Shown: positions 27,571 to 58,411 of the stretch, in pieces
Layout: the number at the start of each line of letters is the position of its first letter
Position numbering within the stretch: position 1 is the first letter of the stretch
DNA from: an uncultured Isosphaeraceae bacterium
Lineage (GTDB): Bacteria > Planctomycetota > Planctomycetia > Isosphaerales > Isosphaeraceae
Reading direction: 5' to 3'
NCBI GenBank assembly: GCA_945957605.1
Contig: CAMFLR010000004.1
Span: 496,001-560,000, forward strand
DNA: 64,000 bases
Notes under the pieces: model-generated
The model's input: the letters and a program-made list of their open reading frames with translations, nothing else
Databases searched by the model: none
What the model was told of the DNA's origin: nothing
Made by a program: the position numbers and the translations under genes

Positions 27571-27757
27571 GGTGGGACACCCCTTCCTTGAGGTCGATCC
27601 TTGTTCGTGGCGCGCGGAGATTAGCGTTTTGGGAAAGATCGGGCAAGCCGGATCGACCTGGCGCTGGCACACAATCGCTCCGAGCCTTGATGATTCGTTC
27701 AATTCGGACTAAAATAACGGACAGAATCGGCAAGTGGATGTGCAGGAGGGCGGGGTG

Positions 27758-28906
27758 ATGGCGACTGTGGCGGCGGAACTGAGGAAGATTCGCGATAAAG
27801 TCGAAGCGGGCCAGCGTCTTACGTTCGAAGATGGTATGACGCTCGAAGCCTCGAACGACATTTTCACGATCGGTGAACTCGCCAACATCGTCCGCGAGCG
27901 CTACAACGGCAACTTTGGCTATTACAACGTCAACACGCACATCAATCCGACGAATGTTTGCGTCTACAAATGCGATTTCTGCGCATTTCGGGCCGATCTG
28001 GACGACAAACGCGCCTACACGATGGATCGCGACCAGATCATCGAGCGCGCCAAACAGGCTCATGACCGCGGTGCGACCGAACTGCACATCGTCGGCGGCC
28101 TCCATCATAAGTTGCCGTTTCAGTATTACGTTGATGTCGTGAAGTGGGTGAAGGAAGCGGCTCCCGAGATTCACGTCAAAGCATACACCGGCGTTGAGGT
28201 CGAGTGGTTCGTCAAAATCGACCGCAAGCCGATTCGCGACATCCTTCAAGCTCTGATCGACGCCGGCCTGGGCAGCTTACCCGGCGGCGGTGCTGAGATT
28301 TTTCATCCCGAAGTTCGCGAGCAGATCTGCGGCGCGAAGGCCAACACTGAAACATGGCTCGAAGTTCACCGGACTGCCCACCAGCTTGGTCTGAAGTCGA
28401 ATGCGACCATGCTTTACGGCCACATCGAAAAGGCCCAACACCGCATCGATCACCTCATGCGACTGCGCGAACTTCAGGATGAAACCGGCGGTTTCCAGAC
28501 GTTCATCCCGCTCGCCTTCCATCCCGATCACTCGCGCATGGACGAGATCCCCAAGCCTTCGGGCGTGATGGATCTCAAGACGATGGCGATCAGCCGGCTC
28601 ATGCTCGACAACTTCCCGCACATCAAGGCTTACTGGGTGATGCTGGGGATCAAGATTGCTCAGGTCGCACTCAAATTCGGGGCCGACGACCTCGATGGAA
28701 CCGTCGTCCACGAAACGATTTATCACGCCGCCGGCGCTGAAACTCCCCAAGAGATTTCGGTGAAGGAAATTCGCCGCCTGATCGCCGAAACTGGCCGCGA
28801 ACCAGTCGAGCGCGACACGCTCTACCACAAGGTTGAGCGCAGCGAAGGAAGCTGGCGTGCGGGCGATGCGATCAAAGTGACCGCGCTCGCAGGCGTCGGC
28901 CGCTAA
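27758..28906 (+). CDS. mqnE: Aminofutalosine synthase, radical SAM
   Basis: MqnE catalyses the second step of the futalosine route to menaquinone, making aminofutalosine from a chorismate-derived enolpyruvyl benzoate and S-adenosylmethionine. The 382-residue protein has the radical SAM cluster motif C-x3-C-x2-C at residues 68, 72 and 75 (CVYKCDFC), a (beta/alpha) barrel with G-G-x-H-H, and a final E-I-R-R-L-I-A-E-T-G helix. The near-paralogue MqnC is similar; I prefer MqnE because of the Y-Y-x-D-x-V-K-W-V-K-E segment and the length. The start is the ATG after GGAGGG; an in-frame GTG at 27734 is less likely. Its neighbours are not menaquinone genes. Confidence 0.9.
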   Translation: MATVAAELRKIRDKVEAGQRLTFEDGMTLEASNDIFTIGELANIVRERYNGNFGYYNVNTHINPTNVCVYKCDFCAFRADLDDKRAYTMDRDQIIERAKQAHDRGATELHIVGGLHHKLPFQYYVDVVKWVKEAAPEIHVKAYTGVEVEWFVKIDRKPIRDILQALIDAGLGSLPGGGAEIFHPEVREQICGAKANTETWLEVHRTAHQLGLKSNATMLYGHIEKAQHRIDHLMRLRELQDETGGFQTFIPLAFHPDHSRMDEIPKPSGVMDLKTMAISRLMLDNFPHIKAYWVMLGIKIAQVALKFGADDLDGTVVHETIYHAAGAETPQEISVKEIRRLIAETGREPVERDTLYHKVERSEGSWRAGDAIKVTALAGVGR

Positions 28907-28914
28907 TCCTCTCG

Positions 28915-28984
28915 GGTGCCACTGGCTTTGCCAGTGCTCTTAAATTGGGCGGAAAACAGGGGCACTGGCCGAGCCAGTGGCACC
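28915..28984. repeat. Inverted hairpin-doublet repeat, copy 1
   Basis: A 70-bp element directly after mqnE. The outer arms GGTGCCACTGGCT (28915-28927) and AGCCAGTGGCACC (28972-28984) are exactly complementary. Each half is also its own hairpin: CACTGGC-TTT-GCCAGTG (28920-28936) and CACTGGC-CGA-GCCAGTG (28963-28979). A related copy lies at 58245-58321. This REP-doublet layout resembles REPIN elements. It may double as a transcription terminator, though no T-run follows. Confidence 0.8.
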
Positions 28985-29165: not shown

Positions 29166-29873
29166 ATGCGCGACCACACCAAGGCGTTTTGCAAGCTCGC
29201 CACCGAGACTTTCGACTGCCCAGGGCCGGTTTACGAGTTCGGCTCCTACCAGGTGGAAGGCCAGCTCGACTACGCCGACCTCCGCTCGTTGTTCCCCGGC
29301 AAGCCCTACGTCGGCTGCGATATGCGGCCTGGCCCCGGTGTCGATCGCGTTGAAGACGTCAGCAAGATGACGATCGGCGACAACGAAGCCGGCACTGTCC
29401 TTTGCATCGAAACATTTGAGCACGTTTTTGAAGTTCGTCGCGCGTTCGACGAGGTTTACCGGATTCTCAAGCCGGGCGGGATGTTCATCTTCACCTCGCC
29501 GCTGAATTTCCGGATCCACGGCTATCCCGATGATTACTGGCGCATGACGCCAAGCTGCCTGCGCCGGATGATCTCGAATTATGATGCCCGGCTGTCGGGC
29601 TTCCAGGGATATCACAAATTCCCGCACACAGTGATGGCCGTCGCCTTCAAGGCTCCCGCGCCGGCTGATTTTGCCGCGCGTGCCGGCCGATTCTCCACAG
29701 TTTACGACGCGTGGCTCAAGAAGGCTCGCCTCGAACGTCCGTTCAACATTCGCATGAAAGAGGCGGTCGGCCGCATCTATCGCTCGAAGGGCGAGCGGTA
29801 CCAGACCGACCACTACTACAACGCCGATCTCACGCTCGACATTGGGCATGTGTCGCTCGCTCAAGCGGGCTAA
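29166..29873 (+). CDS. Class I SAM-dependent methyltransferase
   Basis: A 235-residue soluble methyltransferase. The SAM-binding region is V-Y-E-F-G-S-Y (motif I, residues 22-28), V-G-C-D-M (motif II) and V-L-C-I-E-T-F-E-H-V (motif IV, residues 79-88), with the usual I-L-K-P-G-G-M-F-I-F post-motif strand. The pattern matches Methyltransf_11-type enzymes that act on small molecules, lipids or glycan precursors. The motif I Gly-rich loop is unusual: only one Gly is present. AAGGAGGAG lies 6-7 nt before the ATG. It precedes a phosphodiesterase gene by 64 nt on the same strand. The substrate is unknown. Confidence 0.88.
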   Translation: MRDHTKAFCKLATETFDCPGPVYEFGSYQVEGQLDYADLRSLFPGKPYVGCDMRPGPGVDRVEDVSKMTIGDNEAGTVLCIETFEHVFEVRRAFDEVYRILKPGGMFIFTSPLNFRIHGYPDDYWRMTPSCLRRMISNYDARLSGFQGYHKFPHTVMAVAFKAPAPADFAARAGRFSTVYDAWLKKARLERPFNIRMKEAVGRIYRSKGERYQTDHYYNADLTLDIGHVSLAQAG

Positions 29874-39501: not shown

Positions 39502-39605
39502 CCGGGACAACTTGCTGGTCCCGGTCGCGAAGCGACAAGAGGATATCGCCATCTTTTCCGCGTCGCCCTCTTGTGGCTGCGCCACCTGGACAACAAGTTG
39601 TCCAG
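39502..39605. repeat. Hairpin doublet with complementary arms
   Basis: Two hairpins about 60 nt apart: CCGGGAC (39502-39508) with GTCCCGG (39518-39524), and CTGGACAAC (39586-39594) with GTTGTCCAG (39597-39605). Across the element GGACAACTTG (39505-39514) is exactly complementary to CAAGTTGTCC (39594-39603), and ACAAGAGG (39535-39542) to CCTCTTGT (39567-39574). This gives competing short-range and long-range folds, either a structured RNA or a REP-like doublet. Confidence 0.65.
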
Positions 39606-39727
39606 ACCACCCAATCCAATCTGCTCCACTATCCCAGTTGCATAACTCGTCATGGAGTTTCGGGGCGGAAAACGTCTACCCGTAATGAGTACCGACTATA
39701 GCAAGCTGGCCTAAACTCGTCGCCCCG

Positions 39728-57224: not shown

Positions 57225-57404
57225 GAATCCGCCTCGCCGCAGGAGTAAGGGCTGGTCGGCTAGATTATCCCCCAAACTGCGTGCTTTTCCCAGACTAAAA
57301 ATGGCGTCGAACGCGATCGGATCTGCGAATCCCTTGGACGGCAGGGCGGCATGCAGTAATCTGGCGCTCTGTCGCAAACCCAAGGCAAGATGAAGGATAC
57401 CCGC

Positions 57405-58166
57405 ATGGGCGTTCTCGATCGATTTCGGATTGATGGCAAAGTTGCAATCGTCACCGGCGGCTCGCGCGGGCTGGGGAAGGTCATGGCACAGGCCTTGGCT
57501 GAGGCGGGTGCGAGCGTGGTGGTGACGGCCCGCACGCTCGATTCGGCCGAATCCGCGGCGCGAGAAATTCCCGGCGGCAAGGCGATCGGCGTCGCTTGCG
57601 ACGTGACGAAGGCGGACGATGTTGATGCTTTGGTCGCGCGAACCCTGAGTGAGTTTGGGCGTGTCGATATCCTCGTCAACAACGCGGGGATCAACATCCG
57701 CGGGCCGATTGAGACGCTGAAGGAAGACGACTGGGATGCCGTCATCGACACCAATCTCAAAGGTCCGTGGCTTTGCTGCCGCGCGGTTGCTCCTCACTTC
57801 AAGAAGCAAGGGTCGGGCCGTGTTATCAACCTCTCCAGCATGCTTGGCGAGATCAGCATCCCCGACCGCACGCCGTACGCTTCGAGCAAGGGCGGTCTCA
57901 CGCTGATGACCAAAACTCTGGCCCTCGAATGGGCCAAGTTTGGAGTCACGGTCAACGCCCTTTGCCCTGGGCCATTTCTCACCGAAATCAACACGGCCCT
58001 CATCAAAGACCCAGCGCTTAACGCTGCGTTCGTCTCCAAGATTCCTCTCGGTCGCTGGGGCGATCCGCAGGAACTTGGGGCGGTCGCTGTGTTTCTTGCG
58101 TCTGACGCATCGAGCTTCATGACCGGCGCGACGCTGTTCATTGACGGCGGCTACACCGCCCAGTAA
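57405..58166 (+). CDS. SDR-family oxidoreductase
   Basis: A 253-residue short-chain dehydrogenase/reductase. The cofactor-binding loop is T-G-G-S-R-G-L-G (residues 17-24), followed by C-D-V-T (near 64), N-N-A-G (near 92), the catalytic S-S-M ... Y-A-S-S-K (Ser near 142, Tyr 155, Lys 159) and C-P-G-P-F. It resembles gluconate 5-dehydrogenase or 3-oxoacyl-ACP reductase; the substrate is open. AAGGA lies 7 nt before the ATG at 57405; an in-frame ATG at 57390 would add five residues. A hairpin-doublet repeat follows its stop. Confidence 0.9.
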   Translation: MGVLDRFRIDGKVAIVTGGSRGLGKVMAQALAEAGASVVVTARTLDSAESAAREIPGGKAIGVACDVTKADDVDALVARTLSEFGRVDILVNNAGINIRGPIETLKEDDWDAVIDTNLKGPWLCCRAVAPHFKKQGSGRVINLSSMLGEISIPDRTPYASSKGGLTLMTKTLALEWAKFGVTVNALCPGPFLTEINTALIKDPALNAAFVSKIPLGRWGDPQELGAVAVFLASDASSFMTGATLFIDGGYTAQ

Positions 58167-58244
58167 CGGAGTCAGTCAGTCCGTTCGCCCTCTTTTCTTT
58201 TGGCTCGTGATTGATTCCGGGTTGGAGGTCGAAATCGAGCCGTC

Positions 58245-58321
58245 GGGTGCCACTGGTCGTACCCCACCAATGTGCCATACATGGCGTCAAACACACTGGT
58301 TGAGTACAACCAGTGGCACCC
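58245..58321. repeat. Inverted hairpin-doublet repeat, copy 2
   Basis: The outer arms GGGTGCCACTGGT (58245-58257) and ACCAGTGGCACCC (58309-58321) are exactly complementary and share GGTGCCACTGG with copy 1 at 28915. The right half is its own hairpin, CACTGGTTG-AGTA-CAACCAGTG (58294-58315); the left half has lost its second arm. It lies 78 nt after the SDR stop, just as copy 1 follows mqnE. Confidence 0.75.
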
Positions 58322-58411
58322 AGAAAGACCTGATTCAACGCGGACTTAGGGACATCACCCCGGAATCCGTTATGAGCCTTCCCCTTTTCCTTGTTTGGCG
58401 GAGTCATTCCT

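Follow-up and report, generated by a model that had tools for sequence, protein, structure and literature searches.

The window, that is, the whole 64-kb stretch of DNA analysed here, corresponds to C4:496001-560000 in a genome of 8.84 Mb and 33 contigs. At 28914-28984 it holds a 71-bp doublet of two inverted REPs, to which no strand is assigned and which we read from its sequence, pair count and fold as a REPIN (family A). The left REP (28914-28936, plus strand) consists of the tag GGGTGC and the hairpin CACTGGC-TTT-GCCAGTG (28920-28936). The right REP (28963-28984, minus strand) has GGTGC, preceded by an A where G is usual, so that its tag reads AGGTGC, followed by CACTGGC-TCG-GCCAGTG, which on the forward strand is CACTGGC-CGA-GCCAGTG at 28963-28979. 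The 13-nt outer arms (28915-28927 and 28972-28984) are exact reverse complements, and the arrangement given by the first-pass annotation, facing CACTGGC-NNN-GCCAGTG hairpins within complementary 13-bp arms, is exact at 28915-28984. Because the outer arms overlap the hairpin stems, two separate hairpins and one long hairpin across the doublet (20 of 22 nt matching) are alternative folds. Folded as DNA, the doublet reached -25.9 kcal/mol compared to a shuffle mean of -12.6 (z -6.0), and none of 200 shuffles was as good. An Rfam scan of the 64-kb window gave no matches.

The REPIN begins 7 bp past the stop of a plus-strand ORF of 390 aa (27734-28906) that has matches in 21 of 21 genomes and whose product looks like the aminofutalosine synthase MqnE. 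Downstream lies a plus-strand ORF of 235 aa (29166-29873). A second site in the window, at 58245-58321, also follows a coding region, as had been noted for both sites. The same next gene is kept, and the REPIN is absent, in G010, G005 and G001, the last of these belonging to the same genus with 90 percent identity. Inspection by eye of the 420 bp that follow the orthologous ORF found no REPIN in the ten relatives displayed, whose intergenic DNA has diverged so far that no exact empty site can be read. From this comparison of sequences, the family A REPIN at 28914-28984 is probably lineage-specific.

The motif GGTGCCACTGG occurred 220 times (112 + 108) genome-wide, compared to 7 (4 + 3) for the reversed control pattern, and the inverted pair GTGCCACTG-N32..62-CAGTGGCAC occurred 68 times, compared to 0 for its control. 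A search of the 64-kb window alone for the 11-mer with up to 2 mismatches gave 14 matches, not above the 15.4 seen in shuffles; the case against chance is therefore carried by the genome-wide counts. In about 562 kb of the same genome, 102 exact GTGCCACTGG REPs were found, of which 74 were type A, 19 were type B and 9 fell outside the pattern. The commonest length of type A pairs was 73 bp (12 of 37), and 7 of 9 type B pairs were 75 bp long, one of the nine being a misfiled type A pair. The first-pass annotation had proposed counting pairs and checking their spacing and flanking genes, and had allowed that only two copies might exist or that they might be terminators specific to two genes. Spacing proved narrow, position intergenic, and copies far more numerous than two. 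Chance palindromes, or terminators of just these two genes, would agree with both window sites coming after a gene, but given the excess of pairs and motif copies over their controls we consider this explanation to have a negligible probability. Family A thus has the inverted REPs, short spacing and many intergenic copies of a REPIN.

A RAYT gene, which had also been suggested as a target of search, was found. Searching the genome with PF01797 returned eight genes, five RAYT-like and three IS200-type. Four of the RAYT-like genes (L034, L036, L037 and L038) exceeded the cut-off of NF047646 (NCBIfam REP_Tyr_transpos); the fifth, L035, is truncated and scored 64.8 of 80 bits, below the cut-off. 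Three family A-type REPs adjoin L036 (G000:C14:191602-192069), away from the window, and we refer to this gene as RAYT-A. The presence in one genome of a RAYT gene next to REPs of this very type is, with copy number, narrow spacing and intergenic position, what bears out the REPIN reading. In three aligned RAYT proteins the H-V-H motif and the Tyr of Y-I-H-x-N-P are invariant, as in HUH/tyrosine enzymes, and the best PDB match of their profile was 4er8, the E. coli TnpAREP (E 2e-7). A GGGTG-tagged hairpin lies 47-181 bp outside each of the five RAYT-like genes, against a background density of 0.032 unassigned GGGTG hairpins per kb; outside the three IS200-type genes there was none, with one match inside L033.

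Each of the five RAYT-like genes adjoins its own REP family, all tagged GGGTG. Family A REPs flank L036, and, in a count by eye, the REP flanking L037 matches the type B REP of the window at 25 of 28 nt. Family C, GGGTGC-CATGCTTCCGCC..., flanks L038; family D, GGGTGG-CCGGGACAAC..., flanks L035; and family E, GGGTGG-CACCGGATC..., flanks L034. Family C is very small, with REPs on the RAYT flanks (L038:1128-2031) yet only 7 pattern matches genome-wide. Beside the truncated L035, family D REPs form an inverted pair (L042:6143-6245) in which a second small hairpin follows the GGGTGG-tagged one. The window itself contains a single family D REP on the minus strand at 39566-39612 (extent judged by eye), with a GGGTGG tag, the hairpin GGACAAC-TT-GTTGTCC and then GTGGC-GCA-GCCAC.

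The association of tag and gene extends beyond this genome. We kept the best 80 of 461 confirmed RAYT relatives, those named being mostly from Planctomycetota. Tagged hairpins lay within 300 bp of the RAYT in 58 of 80 loci, compared to 8, 6, 5, 4 and 1 of 80 in the farther bins. The tags point outward, plus outnumbering minus by 49 to 15 on the 5' side and minus outnumbering plus by 49 to 9 on the 3' side, and 31 of the 80 loci had outward tags on both sides. When all hexamers preceding strict hairpins were tested, GTGCCA ranked first, occurring 60 times in the 38.6 kb close to RAYTs (33 of 80 loci) and 6 times in the 259.8 kb far from them (5 of 80 loci). A looser scan gave 46 of 80 loci, a number that includes chance-like hairpins, and the strict hexamer and distance-bin scans are preferred. 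On a tree of 82 rows (79 relatives and 3 of this genome's own), 60 of which could be typed by stem, stem type changed 11 times compared to a shuffled mean of 24.5, and 0 of 200 shuffles were as low. The stem type CACTGGT was not clustered on the tree (125 of 500 as low), and the tree scan found no tagged hairpin at 22 of the 79 usable relatives. In some close relatives of RAYT-A, GTGTGC replaces GGGTGC.

Across the phylum, the tag hairpin was found in 20 of 199 genomes, with two or more in 9 (this one included). RAYT matches were present in each of these 9, but overall in as many as 132 of the 199 genomes, so that co-occurrence of hairpin and RAYT is weak evidence when taken alone. The inverted pair pattern was present in 5 of 30 genomes, this one included; the same-genus genome G001 had no such pairs.

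All 38 family A REPINs are intergenic, in DNA of which 83 percent is coding. They lie in 15 convergent, 22 tandem and 1 divergent gaps, classes that hold 16, 57 and 26 percent of intergenic bases, respectively, counts that are approximate because the gene classes come from a home-made gene caller with errors, which in the window missed the ORF at 57390-58166. Convergent gaps are thus favored and divergent gaps shunned, and the 3' ends of genes are close (median about 38 bp). Family A pairs were chosen by exact outer motifs, which biases apparent conservation, so conservation was counted only at positions outside the search motif; there, the hairpin arms differed from the consensus at 3.2 percent of bases. 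Loop hexamers were identical within a REPIN in 14 of 38 cases compared to 8.2 in shuffles (p 0.006), in line with the two REPs of a pair being spread together.

The nearness of 3' ends, the preference for convergent gaps and the slight divergence of the hairpin arms next to far more decayed outer arms would also be seen if the host kept these hairpins as transcription ends or stabilizers of mRNA 3' ends, their mobile origin being history only. A consensus scan likewise scored the right hairpin (28963-28979) as terminator-like on the minus strand, with 2 sites in the region compared to 0.7 in shuffles. However, the T-run rule of intrinsic terminators does not hold for family A, a run of four Ts being present in 5 of 37 downstream flanks and equally in 5 of 37 upstream flanks, and retention by the host leaves unexplained both the copies flanking RAYT genes and the stems that track the RAYT tree. 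We regard host retention as a serious but rather unlikely explanation.

The second window site had been described as another copy of the same doublet. Its tag and the initial bases of its stem are as in family A; its right hairpin, though, is CACTGGTTGAGTACAACCAGTG and not CACTGGC-NNN-GCCAGTG. Treatment of both sites as one family was rejected, and 58245-58321 is assigned to a separate REP family, B, forming a REPIN-like core (no strand assigned) within a larger 177-bp element at 58202-58378, also without strand. The terminal inverted repeats of this copy have 5 and 4 mismatches to the consensus, and its flanking 8-mers match at 5 of 8 positions. We collected 22 family B elements by their ends. 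Their terminal inverted repeats begin SGCTCATG... and extend about 26 bp, their length is 176-178 bp in 13 of 22, and the exact core motif is inside 19 and absent from three. End-like sites numbered 31 + 35 genome-wide, compared to 0 in the control.

The 8-mers flanking the 22 elements were identical at 6.23 of 8 positions, compared to a shuffled mean of 2.60 and a maximum of 3.82 in 5000 shuffles; 5 of the 22 pairs were perfect and 11 had at least 7 matches, and flank identity peaked at length 8 only. Statistically, over these 22 elements, insertion of family B duplicates 8 bp of target. Family B is thus a short element with terminal inverted repeats and a target duplication of fixed length, that is, a MITE, and its spread is most simply attributed to a cut-and-paste transposase and not to a RAYT, most likely one of DDE type. 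Of the first-pass interpretation, the REPIN reading and the link to RAYT hold, but the site at 58245-58321 sits in a MITE with target duplications. As a parent of the MITE, ISL3 was unsupported, the PF01610 loci L079-L081 being without matching ends. Separately, the ISL3-type transposase gene at G000:C11:51723-52423 (L079, L081) is broken: its matches fall in two neighboring pieces, and an in-frame stop interrupts one of them.

Family A also has traces of outer arms. A weak inverted motif was found in its outer flanks with up to 3 mismatches in 26 of 76, compared to 4-6 of 76 in controls, and with up to 2 mismatches in 13 of 76, compared to 0-1 of 76 in shifted windows; the copy at 28914-28984 has no outer arm above background, with 4 mismatches on one side. 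The edge of these arms is CTAG-like and is often the stop codon of the neighboring gene. Among stops 25-31 bp from a family A REPIN, 13 of 15 were TAG or TAA, whereas elsewhere within 60 bp the number was 8 of 18; it looks as if the stop codon had come from the edge of the element. These weak arms suggest that a larger element may at one time have carried family A as well, and the decayed arms, the edge at CTAG and the excess of TAG and TAA stops would fit a family A that is, like family B, a MITE moved by a DDE transposase, with TA-bounded ends and a secondary link to RAYT. On the other hand, target duplications were looked for at family A and none was found, the REPs beside RAYT-A are without outer arms, and conservation is much higher in the core than in the arms. 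A MITE identity for family A therefore seems improbable to us. We infer that a larger unit has decayed here, while the hairpins at its center continue to be maintained or recopied.

Type B-like REPs are also associated with another element. In 18 of 18 copies (L207-L224, G000) an insertion sequence end, GAATCCCGGACA-N-TATTG, here called IS end X, abuts inside a type B-like REP hairpin. RCCAGTG was present within 24 nt in all 18 copies, compared to 7 of 2666 background windows. The copies are nearly always at contig ends, and the element seems to target REP hairpins and to break the assembly. The one IS110-type transposase, on C9, could not be linked to IS end X.

Taken together, these data indicate, with a probability we put at roughly 0.87, that 28914-28984 is a family A REPIN with RAYT-A as its likely copying partner, and that the family B REPIN rides on a MITE most likely moved by a DDE-type transposase. 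Each REP would form a hairpin in single-stranded DNA with a GGGTGC-type tag at its 5' foot. RAYT-A, as an HUH/tyrosine enzyme, would recognize tag and hairpin on single-stranded DNA and cut beside them, and the doublet would thereby be copied to new intergenic sites; a DDE-type transposase would insert the family B MITE, duplicating 8 bp of target. Binding, cutting and copying by RAYT-A are argued from analogy: according to the text of PMC8266576, TnpAREP of E. coli, Stenotrophomonas and Marinomonas cuts single-stranded REPs at CT or CA with involvement of the GTAG tag, and RAYT-A may read GGGTGC and the hairpin in the same way.

A broader reading, which we hold at about even odds, is that a large planctomycete RAYT group, with five systems in this genome, reads a GGGTG-type guide where others use GTAG, with a stem that co-evolves with the enzyme, and that a DDE-moved MITE has taken up one REPIN type or more, a second having perhaps been taken up by a TA-targeting MITE. 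The same hairpins would then be spread by two unrelated chemistries and serve as landing pads for a third element, IS end X. A natural set of RAYTs appears to read a tag other than that of E. coli, and the stems change along the RAYT tree, so that the rule by which enzyme residues relate to tag and stem could be tested across such pairs. The occurrence of a REPIN as part of a MITE that has clear target duplications suggests that REPs may have means of spread other than their RAYT.

In Pseudomonas, REPINs are reportedly inverted REP doublets with many intergenic copies and a RAYT gene flanked by the same REPs. The doublets described here are alike in all of these respects, including the RAYT beside the same REPs. 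Unlike the Pseudomonas REPINs, of GTAG or GTGG type, they have the tag GGGTGC, a planctomycete host and a sister family inside a MITE; neither GTAG, GTGG nor CGTC is present at the hairpin foot. We compared tags with the text of PMC3733652, PMC6006769, PMC8266576 and PMC2817692. The text of PMC3733652 describes GTAG- and CGTC-tagged REP superfamilies, R. baltica included, that resemble the present families: one foot of the hairpin bears the tag, dimers occur, a genome can have several families, and the RAYTs are family-specific. As far as that text goes they differ in the tag, GGGTG-C or GGGTG-G in the present families; for R. baltica the consensus is given in a figure of the paper, and its tag may overlap with ours. 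A CnGA tag marks class 3, found mainly in Planctomycetes, Acidobacteria and Proteobacteria according to the text compared, and GGGTG differs from all three published tags, GTAG, CGTC and CnGA.

A literature text search on the motif letters returned, among the matches listed, none on bacterial REPs by title, and no description of a GGGTG tag was found in the literature text searched, a scope that stops short of figures and supplements. GGGTGCC as a string is not new, since the Stenotrophomonas REPs Smal3 and S_sp2 have GGTGGGTGCC at the head (text of PMC2817692); in those, however, GTGCC is inside the palindrome, whereas here it precedes it. Section 16 of PMC3733652 describes in P. putida and P. 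fluorescens terminal inverted repeats of degenerate GTAG-1 units joined to unrelated stem-loops. Family B is like these in the fusion of a REP to a larger inverted-repeat structure and in hundreds of copies, and unlike them, as that text presents them, in its measured 8-bp target duplications and terminal inverted repeats of about 26 bp. ISPpu9, in the text of PMC8450116, is an insertion sequence inserted in REPs, as IS end X is, the latter being known here from its end alone. The first-pass annotation was aware of no description of this family. The kind is already known and GGGTGCC occurs in two Stenotrophomonas REPs, but judged by the literature text compared, the group with the GGGTG tag and the core borne by a MITE both look new.
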